This document shows, piece by piece, positions 1,688 to 28,898 of a DNA stretch of 64,000 nucleotides. A model generated the notes under the pieces. The model worked only from the letters and a program-made list of their open reading frames with translations, was not told the DNA's origin and made no database searches. The position numbers were made by a program, and so were the translations under genes. The stretch's first letter is position 1. The number at the start of each line of letters is the position of its first letter. This DNA comes from Bacteroidetes bacterium CG12_big_fil_rev_8_21_14_0_65_60_17 (lineage in GTDB: Bacteria; Bacteroidota; Rhodothermia; Rhodothermales; UBA10348): positions 62,001 through 126,000 of the forward strand of contig PCUY01000031.1 in NCBI GenBank assembly GCA_002787815.1. Direction: 5' to 3'.

Positions 1688-2677
1688 ATGGAAATCAAGA
1701 CATCGCCCGAGACCATTGACCATCTCCATGCCGGTTACAAGTCCCTCCGGTCAGAAATAGCCAAGGTCATTGTAGGCCAGGACGATGTCATTCATCGGAT
1801 CATAGTATCGATCCTGTGTCGGGGGCACGTTCTCCTGATCGGTGTACCCGGTCTGGCGAAGACACTCCTCATCCACACAATTTCCGAGGCCGTGGAGCTT
1901 GACTTCAATCGAATCCAGTTCACTCCCGACCTGATGCCGTCGGATATCACGGGAACGGAAATCATAGAGCAGGACCGCACGACCGGCGGTCGTGAATTCA
2001 AATTCGTGAAAGGACCCGTCTTTGCGAACGTGGTGCTGGCCGATGAGATCAACCGTACCCCTCCCAAGACGCAGGCCGCACTTCTCGAAGCCATGCAGGA
2101 GCATCACGTGACGGCTGCCGGCCAGACGTATGCCCTCCCGGAACCATTCTTCGTGCTGGCAACACAGAATCCCATTGAGCAGGAGGGCACCTATCCCCTG
2201 CCAGAGGCCCAGCTTGACCGCTTCATGCTGAACCTGTGGCTCGATTACCCGACGTTCGACCAGGAAGTCGAGGTCGTGCGCCAGACGACATCAGCCCACC
2301 GGAGCGATGTCAAATGTGTCATGACTGCCCGGGATATCCTGACCTATCAGCAGTTCATTCGGGAAATACCCGTGGCCGACAACGTCATTGAATATGCGGT
2401 TCGGCTCGTGGGCCGGACGCGTCCGGGAACCGATGCCGCGCCGGATTTCGTGAATCAGTACCTGAGTTACGGTGCCGGACCGAGGGCGTCGCAGTATCTG
2501 ATCATGGGGGCCAAAACAATGGCCGCGCTGGACGGCAGGCTTACGCCTTCCATAAGTGACGTGAATGCCCTGGCAATATCCGTTCTCAGGCACCGTATTG
2601 TCTCCAATTTCACGGCCGAGGCCGAAAGTGTCACATCCGTGGATATCATTGAGCGCCTTATGGAGCATTCGGTTTGA
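1688..2677 (+). CDS. MoxR family AAA+ ATPase
   Basis: Walker A-like GVPGLAKT, Walker B VVLADEINRTPPKTQAALLEAMQE, sensor ATQNPIEQEGTYPLPEAQLDRF; classical MoxR signature. Confidence 0.93.
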   Translation: MEIKTSPETIDHLHAGYKSLRSEIAKVIVGQDDVIHRIIVSILCRGHVLLIGVPGLAKTLLIHTISEAVELDFNRIQFTPDLMPSDITGTEIIEQDRTTGGREFKFVKGPVFANVVLADEINRTPPKTQAALLEAMQEHHVTAAGQTYALPEPFFVLATQNPIEQEGTYPLPEAQLDRFMLNLWLDYPTFDQEVEVVRQTTSAHRSDVKCVMTARDILTYQQFIREIPVADNVIEYAVRLVGRTRPGTDAAPDFVNQYLSYGAGPRASQYLIMGAKTMAALDGRLTPSISDVNALAISVLRHRIVSNFTAEAESVTSVDIIERLMEHSV

Positions 2678-22901: not shown

Positions 22902-24143
22902 TCAATGCTGTAAATGAATGGCGCGGATGGGATCTATTCTGGATGCGTATCGGGCCGGCACAAAAGCAGCCCCGGTACAGAGCACACATGTTACCAGTGG
23001 CACAAGGGCGAAGTCAAGTAGCGAAAGCGCAATCGGCGCCTCTTTCATGTAGTAAGCCTCCGGCGGCAGGGGAATGATGCTATATTGGATCTGAATGAGA
23101 GCAAACACCATGGCAATCACTGCACCCAGGATGGATCCTGTCAGACCTATTCCAAGACCCACCCTGGTGAATGTTGCCGTCATGTCACTGCCCCGTGCGC
23201 CCATTCCCATGAGCACGCCGATATCAGCGCGTTTTTCCAGAATCACCATGAGTAGCGTCCCAATCACGTTCACCGCGGCAACGAGTACGATGATGGAAAT
23301 GACAAGGGGAATAATGCTCTGCTGAAGGCGAACCCAGGCGAACAGACTGCGATATACTTCACTGATGGGCCGGGCCATCGCTGGAAACGGCAATTCTTCA
23401 TCGAGCAGGGATGCGATGCGCTCATAGTCCTCTCCTTCCTTCACGCGGACATCTATCCGGGTAGCCTGGTCCTCCTCATACCCTACAAGCTGCCGGGCGC
23501 GCCCGATCTCCGTGAAAAGATAAAGCTCATCAAAATCAGCCAGGGAAGACTCATACACGCCGGCGATGGTGAATTGCGCGACGCGCGGCATTCCACGCAT
23601 ACCGTCTGGAGGGACAGAAAAAAGAGTCACCGTATCTCCCGGCACCAATTGCAGTTTCCGTGCCAGGGATGCGCCCATGAATACGTCGTCACGAGACAGA
23701 TTTGACGACTCCGTCTCCATGGTCAGCACAACATAGGGCGGCAGGCGCTCCGTCCCCCAGATGGCAGCACCCTCTACCCGCTTGTCGCCCGTTCGAAGCA
23801 GCACGAACTCCTGGACGACATGGGCTGTACTGACCACGCCGGGTTGTGCCTGTGCAATTCGGACATAGGTTTCGGCATCGGAAAGCGGCGCATCGCGCAG
23901 GCTTTCGATCTGGATCTGTGCACCGAAACCAACAATTTTCCGGGTTATCTCCTGGCTGAATCCGCGGACGATGGCGAGAGACAGAATAAGTGTGGCAACG
24001 CCTACAGCGACTCCGCCTATAGCGATCCTGATGACAAGACGAAGGAATCGACGCCCTTCGGAGCGACCTTCAGCTCCCCGGAGGTATCTCCATGCCAGAA
24101 AAGTCTGCAACGATTGTTTTGCCATGTGCTGTTGACGACGCAA
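22902..24143 (-). CDS. ABC transporter permease of LolC/LolE/FtsX type
   Basis: AWRYLRGAEGRSEGRRFLRLVIRIAIGGVAVGVATLILSLAIVRGFSQEI; MacB-PCD-like domain and C-terminal FtsX TM helices. Confidence 0.9.
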   Translation of the reverse strand: MRRQQHMAKQSLQTFLAWRYLRGAEGRSEGRRFLRLVIRIAIGGVAVGVATLILSLAIVRGFSQEITRKIVGFGAQIQIESLRDAPLSDAETYVRIAQAQPGVVSTAHVVQEFVLLRTGDKRVEGAAIWGTERLPPYVVLTMETESSNLSRDDVFMGASLARKLQLVPGDTVTLFSVPPDGMRGMPRVAQFTIAGVYESSLADFDELYLFTEIGRARQLVGYEEDQATRIDVRVKEGEDYERIASLLDEELPFPAMARPISEVYRSLFAWVRLQQSIIPLVISIIVLVAAVNVIGTLLMVILEKRADIGVLMGMGARGSDMTATFTRVGLGIGLTGSILGAVIAMVFALIQIQYSIIPLPPEAYYMKEAPIALSLLDFALVPLVTCVLCTGAAFVPARYASRIDPIRAIHLQH

Positions 24144-24189: not shown

Positions 24190-26976
24190 TCACATGGCGT
24201 GCGCGTTGGACGACGGGATATGCGTGAAGTGGTAGGCCATCCATGGCCCACTCAACTGCATTTCCACTCCCAAGTCATCGTATTCGGCGGCGATGGCAGA
24301 AACCGCTGCCTTGAACTCCGCTTCCCTCGCCTCGGAAACCAGGTAGCTCGCATTCAACACGACGCGTCGCGTGGCATCGGAATTGGCCGGCACGTTTTTC
24401 AGGAGTCCTTCCGACGCTACACCGAGAAGGCGAGAGTGCGTGTTTCCGACAATATTCTGAATGATTGTCACCAACTGGGACTCGTCCGGTGCATCGGCAG
24501 TCAGCTTAAGTTCTTCCCTGATGAAACCCGCTACTCCGTGTGTCATGTCATTGAGTGAGGCATCTATCCGGGCATCGGATGCCATGAAGTGTTCCCGGAG
24601 TGCGTGCATATCCACCTGCATTCGCAGACTGAATTCCTTCCTGTTGGACAGTCTCGAGAGCGCATCCCGGAACGCTTCGTGCCTTTCGGCAAGAAAGTCA
24701 TCCAGATCGACAGCACGCTCAAAGACTTCACCAAACGGCAGGGGCACGAGTGAATCGACACCGGGAAGTGCACTCAGGATATTGGCGTGCTTCGCCACCT
24801 GCTGCTTCGTCCAGGCAGCGTCAGTCATGGCGTGACGGAGGGCGTCGTCACCATACGTGGACACCGGAACACGTGACATCACAGCGCACAGGTCCTCCCA
24901 GGTATGGAATTCCAGTCTGGTTCCGGGAGCCAGTCCCTCAATGCTTTCAATGGCATCGGTGTCCAACGCGTCGATATCCAATATGCCGTATACGTACAGG
25001 AGCGTGCGCTTGGCGTCCTCCGTTTCTGGCACGGCCGCATCTGGCATGCCGGGTGCTTCAGTGTGGGCACCGTCACCCGCCGTCAACAGCTCCGAAACAG
25101 ACCAGGGCTTTTCCGCCCCCTCATCCGCGTTTTCGCAGCTCTCGTTCTCGTGGTCCTCATCCATGTCTGATAGTGTTGTCCACGACATGGACGCCGAACC
25201 GGTATCAAGAACGGCCGTCATGGCATTTCTTAGCAGTGACATGTCGTCGCCCGTTGCGCTCTTTTCAGCAGATTGACCCAACGAACGCAGCGTGTCGGCG
25301 ATGACCGTCGCCAGAATCCGTTCCCGGAGGGAACTGGCTACCTGACCAATTTCAGGGGCATCGCCAGGAACATGCACCATGGCTTCGGTAACTGACGTCT
25401 TCACGTCCGAGACCGCGCGAAGAACTCTCTCGGCAACTTCTCTCAATACGTTGTCCTGCAATGCCTCTGTCACGTCAAAGATTGTCTGTGACTCGAGGTC
25501 AATGCGCTCCCATGCCTCGCGCGTTGCGCGATCTGTGTCGGATAGATCCTCTTCAGCATGGCGGGCGATCTCATTGAAGAGCATGGACAGAAGGGCGGTA
25601 CGCGCCGCATCCATTTCCGGCGCCGCGTCCAGGATGTCGCGCGCAGAACGGGCCACCTCGTCACTCTTCGACAGGCGCTCATGTGCCTGCGTGCTGACCT
25701 CTTCAACGAGCATTCTCTCAAGCATGTCCGCGGCCTGCTCCACACCGGGCAGTGACTCGGCCATGCGTGTTCTGGCCTCGGACGACAGCTTCTCCACATG
25801 CAGGAGACGGCCTTCTGCTTCGGCTATGACCTCTGCCACGATCAGTGACATGGTTGCTTTCAGAATGCGCTGGACATCGTGTGCATCCGTCGGGATGGAG
25901 TCGGCCGCCCGAGCAGCGATCGCATCCGTGTCGACCAGTTGCTCTTCTGCCAACCCTGATACGATTTCAATGAGTCGTTCGCGTGTTGCTGATACGGCAC
26001 TTGCCAGACTCTCACCGCTCTCGTCGACAACGCGCTCGGCCGCTGCTTTACCAAGCGTGTCGGGTACACGCAATACGTTGCGCAATTCCGATTCAATGTG
26101 CTGAGTCAGACTCTCTTTCGCCGCCGCTACTGCCGGCTCCAGCTCAGGATCGGATGCGGATATCCAAAGCTCGGCATCGGTAGCCAGTTCGTCCCGGTTG
26201 CCCAGTGAGCGCGCCGTCCTCCTGGCGATATCCTGAATGATGCGCGTGCGCAGAATGGTCGTGGCGGCAATGATATCATCCTGGTCGAATGTGACCAGTG
26301 CGCGGGCTTCCTTCGAGAGCCGGTCCGCATCTCCCAGGCCATCAACAGTCCGGTCTGCAATGCGTTGAACCAGCGCCGTACGAACATCCGAAGCAATGCT
26401 GTCGACGACATCCGAACGGGAAATCACGGACGACAAGGACTCGGCGAGAACCTCATCACGGCTTTCGCTGCCCGCGTCCAGCATATGCGCTGACAGTTCG
26501 GACACGCGCGACGAGATGGCCGTTTTTACCGCAGACGAAATATCCAACCCCTCAAGGGAAGCTTGTACGTTTTCCCGGATGAAGACCTCCATCTGGGCAC
26601 GAGACTGTTCCTCGATTCGCGTCCTGACAAGAGATATCACCTCCTCTCCCAGTGCGAATTCAGGCGCTGTGGCCTCCAGACTGTCCGCAACGATGGCTTC
26701 CATGTCAATACCTGCCCAGGATGCTTCACATTCGGACCGGACCATGTCGCGAACGCGCTCTTCGGTTTCAGCGTGAACAGCACCTTTTTTGGCCTGCACA
26801 AGTGCGCGGACCCTTTCGCGGGCAGGCCCAAGGTCGAGCGAAATCTCGCTGATCTGCCTGTCTATCTGCTGCTGACTGTCGGCAGCCAGTTCCTCCACAG
26901 CCTGTTGCATGAGGGTGCGTAGGAGCTGCTGCTTGACAGCTGCGCGGGCTTCGTCCATCTGTGGTTGCTGGTTCAT
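24190..26976 (-). CDS. fusion protein: N-terminal helical repeat array plus acidic linker plus C-terminal GvpL/GvpF-family gas vesicle domain
   Basis: Start MNQQPQMDEARAAVKQQ at 26976. The C-terminal ~265 aa reads TLLYVYGIL..VPLPFGEVFERAVDLDDFLAERHEAFRDALSRLSNRKEFSLRMQVD..VVLNASYLVSEAREAEFKAAVSAIAAEYDDLGVEMQLSGPWMAYHFTHIP, the GvpL/F family pattern (PF06386). Confidence 0.85.
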   Translation of the reverse strand: MNQQPQMDEARAAVKQQLLRTLMQQAVEELAADSQQQIDRQISEISLDLGPARERVRALVQAKKGAVHAETEERVRDMVRSECEASWAGIDMEAIVADSLEATAPEFALGEEVISLVRTRIEEQSRAQMEVFIRENVQASLEGLDISSAVKTAISSRVSELSAHMLDAGSESRDEVLAESLSSVISRSDVVDSIASDVRTALVQRIADRTVDGLGDADRLSKEARALVTFDQDDIIAATTILRTRIIQDIARRTARSLGNRDELATDAELWISASDPELEPAVAAAKESLTQHIESELRNVLRVPDTLGKAAAERVVDESGESLASAVSATRERLIEIVSGLAEEQLVDTDAIAARAADSIPTDAHDVQRILKATMSLIVAEVIAEAEGRLLHVEKLSSEARTRMAESLPGVEQAADMLERMLVEEVSTQAHERLSKSDEVARSARDILDAAPEMDAARTALLSMLFNEIARHAEEDLSDTDRATREAWERIDLESQTIFDVTEALQDNVLREVAERVLRAVSDVKTSVTEAMVHVPGDAPEIGQVASSLRERILATVIADTLRSLGQSAEKSATGDDMSLLRNAMTAVLDTGSASMSWTTLSDMDEDHENESCENADEGAEKPWSVSELLTAGDGAHTEAPGMPDAAVPETEDAKRTLLYVYGILDIDALDTDAIESIEGLAPGTRLEFHTWEDLCAVMSRVPVSTYGDDALRHAMTDAAWTKQQVAKHANILSALPGVDSLVPLPFGEVFERAVDLDDFLAERHEAFRDALSRLSNRKEFSLRMQVDMHALREHFMASDARIDASLNDMTHGVAGFIREELKLTADAPDESQLVTIIQNIVGNTHSRLLGVASEGLLKNVPANSDATRRVVLNASYLVSEAREAEFKAAVSAIAAEYDDLGVEMQLSGPWMAYHFTHIPSSNAHAM
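25222..26410 (-). repeat. protein-level tandem array of ~8-9 degenerate ~44-aa helical repeats inside the GvpL/F fusion
   Basis: Aligned units: AATTILRTRIIQDIARRTARSLGNRDELATDAE.. / AVAAAKESLTQHIESELRNVLRVPDTLGKAAAE.. / AVSATRERLIEIVSGLAEEQLVDTDAIAARAAD.. / AADMLERMLVEEVSTQAHERLSKSDEVARSARD.. / AARTALLSMLFNEIARHAEEDLSDTDRATREAWE.. at 42-48 aa period. Confidence 0.7.
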
Positions 26977-27227
26977 GTCAGCGCGTGTTGTATTCGGTTT
27001 GTCGAATGAACGCGCGTGCAAGTCCTGTGCCGTATCGAAAATGGCTCTTTAACCACCGTTTCCGGCCACATTCGCAATGACTGGTGCCGGAAATCTTGCC
27101 CGCTCGAGGAAAAATATTCCGTCCCTTGGCACCGGGCTCGAAGGACCAATGCTCTGCCGTTGGAAGTTTGAATGAAAGCCTGTAAGACGCTTTCTGTACG
27201 TGTTACATTGCAGTCTCGAGCGTATCC

Positions 27228-28898
27228 ATGCAATATCCAATGGCCATGAACAATCAGATTCCCTCTGTACCGTATCCCGTCAATGAACCGGTCACGTCCT
27301 TCGCTCCGGGTACGCCGGAACGCGCGTCCCTGCGAAAGCGGCTCGCCGACATGAGGCAGGAAACGTTCGATATCCCTGCCATCATAGGTGGACAGGAAAT
27401 CAGGACGGGCAGGACCTTTCGTGTCGTCGCACCGCACGATCATGCGTTGGATCTGGGCCATATGCACAAGACAGGGCTCGATGAGGTGGAGAAAGCCGTT
27501 GCCGCGGCACGGGATGCGCGAAAGGAGTGGGCAGAGCTGCATTGGACGGACCGGGCCGCCGTTTTCCTGAAAGCCGCCGAGCTTCTTGCCGGTCCATGGC
27601 GGGATACCATCAACGCCGCCACGATGCTGGGTCAGAGCAAGAATACCATGCAATCGGAGATAGATGCGGCCTGTGAACTGATTGATTTTTGCCGGTTCAA
27701 CGTACATTTTGCCGAGCAGATCTACTCCGATCAGCCCATTTCCGATGTGGGTATCTGGAACCGGTCCCAGTACCGTCCCCTGGAGGGTTTTGTGTTCGCC
27801 GTTGCCCCATTCAACTTCACATCCATTGCAGCCAACCTGTTCGTGGCGCCGGCACTCATGGGCAATACAGTGCTGTGGAAGCCATCGTCCACGTCCATCC
27901 TGAGCGCGTACCACCTCTACAAATTGTTCGAGGCAGCCGGCCTGCCGCCTGGTGTGGTCAACATGTTGCCTGGCGATGGTCCTACAGTGGGTGATCCGGT
28001 ATTCGCGCACCCGGAGTTTGCCGGTATCCATTTCACGGGATCCACCGCCACGTTCCAGCACATGTGGCGAACCATGGGATCAAACATCGAAACCTATCGG
28101 TCCTATCCACGCATCGTCGGTGAGACCGGTGGGAAGGATTTCATTCTCATGCACCCGGATTCGGATCCGACAACCGTTGCGACGGCCATTGTACGAGGGG
28201 CATTCGAATACCAGGGGCAGAAGTGTTCTGCAGCCTCGCGCGTGTATATTCCGAAGTCCCAGTGGAATGACGTCCGTGAAAGTCTTACTGCGCAACTCTC
28301 CGAGATCACGGTAGGTCCCGTGGAAGACTTCACGAACTTCATGAATGCCGTCATAGACCAGAAGGCATTCGACAAGATTACTGGATACATAGAACACGCC
28401 CGGTCCTCGTCCGATGCAGAAATAATTGCCGGAGGCACGTATTCGGACAAAGAGGGCTGGTTCATTGATCCAACGGTCATCCTTGCCAAAGACCCCGGAT
28501 ACAAGACCATGTGCGAGGAGATTTTCGGTCCCGTGGTAACGATCCATGTCTACGAGGACCAGAAGTTCAGTGACATGATCCGCGTCATTGACACCACCAG
28601 TCCGTACGCACTGACAGGCGCCATTTTTGCCCGTGACCGGCGCGTCATTGCCGAGACCACGGCTGCCCTCTCCGACAACGCCGGCAACTTTTACATCAAT
28701 GATAAACCAACGGGAGCTGTTGTCGGGCAACAGCCCTTTGGCGGCGCCCGTGGTTCAGGTACGAATGACAAGGCAGGTTCCTACATGAACCTGCTACGCT
28801 GGGTGTCTGCGCGCTCCATCAAGGAGAATTTCTCTCCGCCCACTCACTTTGCATACCCGTTCCACCAGCCCGATCCAACCGAGAATCCAATCACATGA
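27228..28898 (+). CDS. L-glutamate gamma-semialdehyde (1-pyrroline-5-carboxylate) dehydrogenase
   Basis: Aldehyde dehydrogenase fold: VGETGGKDFILMHPDSD, AFEYQGQKCSAASRVYIP (catalytic Cys), FGGARGSGTNDKAGSYMNLLRWVSARSIKENF (P5CDH-type C-terminus). Confidence 0.92.
   Translation: MQYPMAMNNQIPSVPYPVNEPVTSFAPGTPERASLRKRLADMRQETFDIPAIIGGQEIRTGRTFRVVAPHDHALDLGHMHKTGLDEVEKAVAAARDARKEWAELHWTDRAAVFLKAAELLAGPWRDTINAATMLGQSKNTMQSEIDAACELIDFCRFNVHFAEQIYSDQPISDVGIWNRSQYRPLEGFVFAVAPFNFTSIAANLFVAPALMGNTVLWKPSSTSILSAYHLYKLFEAAGLPPGVVNMLPGDGPTVGDPVFAHPEFAGIHFTGSTATFQHMWRTMGSNIETYRSYPRIVGETGGKDFILMHPDSDPTTVATAIVRGAFEYQGQKCSAASRVYIPKSQWNDVRESLTAQLSEITVGPVEDFTNFMNAVIDQKAFDKITGYIEHARSSSDAEIIAGGTYSDKEGWFIDPTVILAKDPGYKTMCEEIFGPVVTIHVYEDQKFSDMIRVIDTTSPYALTGAIFARDRRVIAETTAALSDNAGNFYINDKPTGAVVGQQPFGGARGSGTNDKAGSYMNLLRWVSARSIKENFSPPTHFAYPFHQPDPTENPIT

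Follow-up and report, generated by a model that had tools for sequence, protein, structure and literature searches.

The window (the whole 64,000-nucleotide stretch of DNA that was analysed) carries on its minus strand a gene for a large protein in which helical repeats precede a C-terminal GvpL/GvpF domain. The open reading frame spans 24190-27021 (−) and comprises 943 codons when started at TTG; an in-frame ATG at 26976 gives a protein of 928 aa, which fits both the end point and the ~930-aa length given by an earlier reading of the letters alone (below, the sequence-only reading). Residue numbers count from the TTG at 27021. The following features were assigned:

22902-24143 (−): LolC/E-type (MacB_PCD + FtsX) permease, co-directional, 46 bp past the stop of the fusion gene
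24190-26976 (−): fusion protein gene (928 aa from the ATG at 26976; 943 codons from the TTG at 27021)
24223-24999 (−): GvpL/GvpF domain (PF06386, residues 675-933), full length, family signature residues retained
25006-25221 (−): acidic linker (residues 601-672; 18 D/E against 3 K/R)
25048-25110 (−): second linker motif, KPWSVSELLTAGDGAHTEAPG, pattern W..[SN]E...GDG..AP
25156-25185 (−): first linker motif, SWTTLSDMDE, consensus W[ST]xLSD
25222-26400 (−): array of ~44-residue helical repeats (residues 208-600; starts detected at 208, 253, 342, 385, 430, 473, 517 and 561)
26887-26964 (−): N-terminal amphipathic helix (residues 20-45), ...DEARAAVKQQLLRTLMQQAVEEL
27228-28898 (+): L-glutamate gamma-semialdehyde dehydrogenase, divergent neighbour, context only

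The C-terminus was matched to PF06386 with E 1e-37 (131 bits against the Pfam cut-off of 23.6), positions 2-244 of the 245 in the profile being covered, and nothing besides PF06386 was returned at E<=1 when the full fusion protein was scanned against Pfam. In an AlphaFold2 model (11 relatives aligned) the C-terminal domain was predicted with confidence (pLDDT mostly 75-89), and its three top fold matches in the PDB were crystal structures of Anabaena and Microcystis GvpF (6l5d and 4qsg among them; E 2.6e-12 to 9e-11, TM 0.72-0.78 by target length). The profile search and the structure prediction proposed in the sequence-only reading thus both bear out its assignment of the last ~265 aa (24214-25011) to the GvpL/GvpF family. 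Every signature residue common to gas-vesicle GvpF/L proteins is retained (H745, P760, F763, E796, L894, G925, P926, Y930 and F932). With GvpF and GvpL (PF06386; PDB 4QSG, 6L5D) the window protein has the full-length domain, these residues and the fold in common, but its domain forms the C-terminal part of a far larger protein, is encoded without a gvp cluster, lies far under the NCBIfam equivalog cut-offs (38.1 of 200 bits for NF045778, GvpL; 28.2 of 350 bits for NF052351, GvpF) and carries near-invariant residues specific to the orphan group (W737, H862, Y893 and G918). At 928 aa the window protein is not a stand-alone GvpF/GvpL protein of ~200-300 aa; its long-fusion relatives measure 708-1917 aa.

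For the GvpF/L domain a dN/dS of 0.057 was obtained, and the permease gave 0.074-0.080 when these two pairs were compared; all of these figures are rough, with synonymous sites close to saturation. Where it is retained, the domain is under strong purifying selection and is constrained as strongly as the adjoining permease. In a tree of 100 GvpF/L domains, the deep branches of which are poorly resolved, the long fusions cluster together (support 85, with a core from families f1, f4 and f6 at 97), as do shorter GvpF/L forms from families f8, f10 and f11 (support 98); the gas-vesicle GvpF/L proteins of family f13 fall among those of other phyla, and both orphan groups are separate from them.

The start of the protein, with its amphipathic helix, is conserved across nearly all relatives. 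The helical array and acidic linker described in the sequence-only reading are both present, and the array has a period of ~44 residues: with an iterated profile, units were detected 43-45 residues apart in all long relatives (8 to 18 copies in f1, f4 and f6, two in f5, and nine in the window protein, eight of them within residues 208-600). The 67 units of exactly 44 residues show a regular amphipathic helix; a conserved Asp (70%) precedes the second short helix and a turn rich in Pro and Asp. Across the Rhodothermales these repeats are confined to this family of fusion proteins, either at the home site or as contig-end fragments, plus a second copy in genome G016. Membership in a known repeat family was rejected after Pfam had yielded nothing convincing (no family covers the repeats in the full protein or in 19 array segments) and a PDB sequence search had returned a designed helical repeat protein as its sole match (E 0.001). 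AlphaFold models of the repeats, alone or within the full protein, were of low confidence (mean pLDDT ~56); the array is described here as helical and periodic, with a rod, a solenoid or a bundle as its possible shape.

Two known classes of repeat protein invite comparison. GvpC lies on the outer surface of gas vesicles and has 33-residue repeats. Like GvpC, the array is made of amphipathic helical repeats with a unit length that is a multiple of 11; its unit, however, is of 44 and not 33 residues, it has no GvpA ribs to bind, and it is fused to a GvpF/L domain. The GvpC family gave no Pfam match in the full protein or the 19 array segments, and PF06386 is the protein's sole Pfam match to any gas-vesicle protein. 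With apolipoprotein-type repeat proteins (PF01442) the array has in common 11-mer-based amphipathic helices with periodic breaks, and the 44-residue unit (4 x 11), with its regular hydrophobic face and acidic character, would suit a lipid- or granule-surface coat of apolipoprotein- or phasin-like repeats that is capped or chaperoned by the GvpF head. We consider such a coat unlikely: the single apolipoprotein match of the array in Pfam is insignificant (E 0.037), and the hydrophobic face is mostly A/L/I/V at the core-like spacing typical of helix-helix packing, not the residue pattern of a lipid face.

The linker is acidic and variable apart from the two short motifs W[ST]xLSD and W..[SN]E...GDG..AP; 12 of 24 linkers contain GDG followed by one of six residues, where shuffled sequences would lead one to expect 0.6. 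Judged by its sequence, the protein is thus an intact GvpF/L domain fused through an acidic linker to an array of 44-residue helical repeats, the length of which varies. Further copies were seen in other families. In genus g48 of f13, a second copy elsewhere in the genome (L189 3247-4656, L190 4261-5673) has a helix, a repeat-like segment and the W...GDG...APG linker motif, and retains just the C-terminal half of the GvpF/L domain. Genome G016 (f3), which is without GvpA, has a tandem pair consisting of a 257 aa GvpF/L protein and a 708 aa fusion (L162 5348-6121 and 6154-8280), and a third, repeat-bearing copy of 658 aa elsewhere (L172 4201-6177).

The genome from which the window comes (2.9 Mb, 90 contigs, 95.5% complete) was searched as a whole for gas-vesicle genes. 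PF06386 gave a single match, the fusion gene; PF00741 (GvpA/J/M/S) was not found at E<=1, nor were relatives of GvpK and GvpG, and the search for GvpN gave just sub-threshold AAA+ cross-hits, as it did in 12 of 14 control genomes. A 330-codon frame at window positions 2036-2323 (+) has such a match (28 of 266.8 bits) and, because similarly weak matches occur in those controls, is probably an ordinary MoxR-type ATPase. What the sequence-only reading had observed for the window, that no gvpA, gvpJ, gvpK or gvpN gene is visible, thus extends to the genome; its alternative of a remote gvp locus was rejected, none having been found genome-wide or in 43 of the 47 related genomes that carry PF06386.

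These 47 genomes come from a set of 115 Rhodothermales, in which GvpA was found in five, all from family f13, where a few members have real gvp clusters; the 43 are those without GvpA (PF00741). Four of the five GvpA genomes have PF06386, and the fifth, G070, has GvpA without a PF06386 match. In an even sample of the phylum, GvpA was present in 24 of 29 PF06386 genomes outside the Rhodothermales, against 0 of 15 inside. When genome contigs were scanned, the closest relatives of the fusion were from Rhodothermales MAGs, the complete ORFs measuring 1005-1552 aa and having no GvpA-like ORF nearby. Nearly all matches from other phyla adjoin 1-6 GvpA-like ORFs, which indicates that the detection of GvpA works; the exceptions, L129 and L139, have several GvpF/L ORFs each. 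The orphan state of GvpF/L is the rule in the Rhodothermales. In more distant Bacteroidota (f29 and f46), genomes without GvpA have ORFs of ~410-560 aa in which the C-terminus resembles a diverged GvpF/L domain at E 1e-7 to 1e-10 (L184 5108-6565, L185 5574-7259, L186 5476-6705, L187 5157-6605), and these are possibly a second orphan group.

An orphan of this kind might be the relic of a gas-vesicle cluster that has lost its other genes, and both the gvp clusters of a few f13 Rhodothermales and a partial loss of the fusion in genus g3 (described below) could be taken that way. The strong purifying selection and a context fixed across the order contradict decay, however, as do the elaborate, lineage-specific architecture and the position of the domain in the tree, apart from the f13 gas-vesicle proteins; a decayed gvp cluster was rejected on the grounds of selection and context and is, in our estimate, very improbable.

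The permease downstream was matched to TIGR02212 with E 2.6e-59, yet under the equivalog cut-off, and is here called LolC/E-type. In all 16 long-fusion loci measured (f1, f4, f5 and f6) it follows the fusion gene co-directionally after a gap of 12-166 bp, and the two genes are adjacent in four further loci (f3, f6 and f13); the fusion gene thus lies directly upstream of the permease in twenty genomes from six families. A survey of homologues for the same fusion and neighbourhood, as suggested in the sequence-only reading, therefore finds the fusion conserved across the Rhodothermales in this position. All members of the order have the permease, whether they carry the fusion gene or not, so the pairing alone is no proof of a common function.

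The site also records losses. In several other species the fusion gene is cleanly missing between its two usual neighbours, the dehydrogenase flanking the site whether the gene is present or absent. Only the 255 N-terminal residues are left in G088. In the sister species G084 and G085 (genus g3, in the family of the window genome) the ORF stops just past the second Trp motif, so that the array and both Trp motifs are kept while the GDG and the GvpF/L domain are lost; a search of both genomes gave no other PF06386 gene. Since these two species keep the array and the Trp motifs without the head, the head is separable from the role of the array, and it is not essential everywhere.

The main rival explanation is drawn from this neighbourhood. 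The fusion protein would act as a regulator or cytoplasmic organiser of the adjoining permease, in lipoprotein release or envelope biogenesis, as its fixed and co-directional upstream position might suggest. The permease is universal, however, many species keep the site but not the fusion, synteny extends over the wider region in any case, and the GvpF/L gene of f8, f10 and f11 lies away from the permease, adjoining succinate dehydrogenase genes in f8 and f11. This role is accordingly regarded as improbable, though it deserves more weight than the surface coat.

In families f8, f10 and f11 (the last of which we take to be Rhodothermus) the GvpF/L protein is shorter (~300-460 aa) and belongs to a multi-gene version of the system. 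A helix module of ~50 residues stands at the N-terminus of the GvpF/L protein in f10 and f11, with a shorter match in f8. Immediately upstream, in the same orientation, one to three genes encode small proteins (~60-250 aa) that carry the module as well, one of them with a C-terminal coiled-coil segment in addition. Strong matches to the module (E<1e-9) were found in exactly the f8, f10 and f11 genomes, all of which have GvpF/L, and nowhere else in the order; the canonical gas-vesicle loci examined gave no match. In the Rhodothermus-like genomes of L062 (8425-8943 + 7539-8474) and L063 (8034-8561 + 7144-8037), the short GvpF/L gene overlaps or abuts that of a 172-175 aa protein which shares its N-terminal helix module, the pair being convergent with sdhA and sdhB. 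Clusters of three to four genes ending in the GvpF/L protein were seen in L174 (2769-5295), L175 (4393-7024) and L061 (7992-10197), in the order small proteins of 76-93 aa, a protein of 138-251 aa with a C-terminal coiled coil, then GvpF/L; a family search with the 76-93 aa proteins gave no match.

Such small proteins beside a GvpF/L gene, together with the full retention of the canonical signature residues, might point to a cryptic compartment, gas-vesicle-like or otherwise bounded by protein, with a shell too divergent for PF00741, the wall being formed by the small helical proteins (~60-90 aa in f8 and f10) or by the repeats. The small proteins look helical, charged and soluble, however, and lack the hydrophobic beta hairpin seen in GvpA; beside the fusion gene in the window there is no shell-like candidate, and the genome searches gave no GvpK or GvpG. 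A hidden compartment is in our judgement quite improbable.

Even when the fusion sequences had been left out of it, a profile of the small-protein module matched the fusions of f4 and f6 in their first or last repeat (E 1e-5 to 7e-3, best 1.5e-5; 15.4 bits against 6.1 for the best shuffled sequence), but its match to the N-terminal helix of the window protein is weak (E 0.56). As a profile-profile comparison of the module with a four-repeat array was not significant (P 0.11), the matches in f4 and f6 suggest, at most, a descent of the array from the small proteins. That the lineage of the window fused and multiplied the helix module is a supported hypothesis at the level of sequence comparison. 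A wider proposal would see in the Rhodothermales a GvpA-independent assembly system derived from one common amphipathic helix module, either spread over small proteins and GvpF/L or fused and expanded into array plus head; we put it forward as a speculative possibility, with perhaps one chance in a few of being correct. On that view the GvpF fold would be a helix-binding assembly module of general use and not one specific to gas vesicles.

The reading that we favour, tentatively and at slightly less than an even chance, is that the fusion serves the Rhodothermales as a helical scaffold or adaptor in the cytoplasm, in which the C-terminal GvpF/L domain would be the binding head and gas vesicles would play no part. 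The repurposed GvpF/L domain in a non-gas-vesicle scaffold, already considered in the sequence-only reading, is thus the best-supported explanation; independence of GvpA is well supported, and the scaffold role is inferred from the architecture. In gas vesicles GvpF is a direct partner of GvpA and binds its N-terminal half, made up of the amphipathic N-terminal helix and the hairpin next to it; for this binding the alpha-1 helix alone suffices (PMC7688916, PMC11445434). By the simplest transfer from this pair, the head would hold a comparable amphipathic helix or a hydrophobic segment of some other client. The array would form an extended or bundled rod and, through its amphipathic helices, associate with itself or bind small helical partners, which in f8, f10 and the presumed Rhodothermus would be the separate small proteins. 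The ligand of the head might also be the array or the small partner itself, which would lead to a head-to-tail or network assembly. As the Trp motifs of the linker are retained even after loss of the head, they probably serve to recruit a further partner.

Literature searches on orphan GvpF/L, on PF06386 and on gas vesicles in Rhodothermus and the wider order turned up no account of such proteins, in keeping with the earlier view of the gene as a candidate for something undescribed. To our knowledge, GvpF/L has so far been studied only as a gas-vesicle accessory factor, and its role there (chaperone, nucleator or platform) is still debated. The proteins described here form a branch of the GvpF/L family that extends across the order, is independent of GvpA and has a new helical repeat array, and their function is a matter of inference: a domain known only from gas-vesicle assembly has been retained in a different role, probably to act as the binding head of a scaffold in the cytoplasm. 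Databases would label such proteins 'gas vesicle protein' and so predict a buoyancy that the organisms very probably lack. A conserved GvpF/L lineage free of GvpA, putatively including the cultured genus Rhodothermus, would be a clean system for finding the ligand of the fold.
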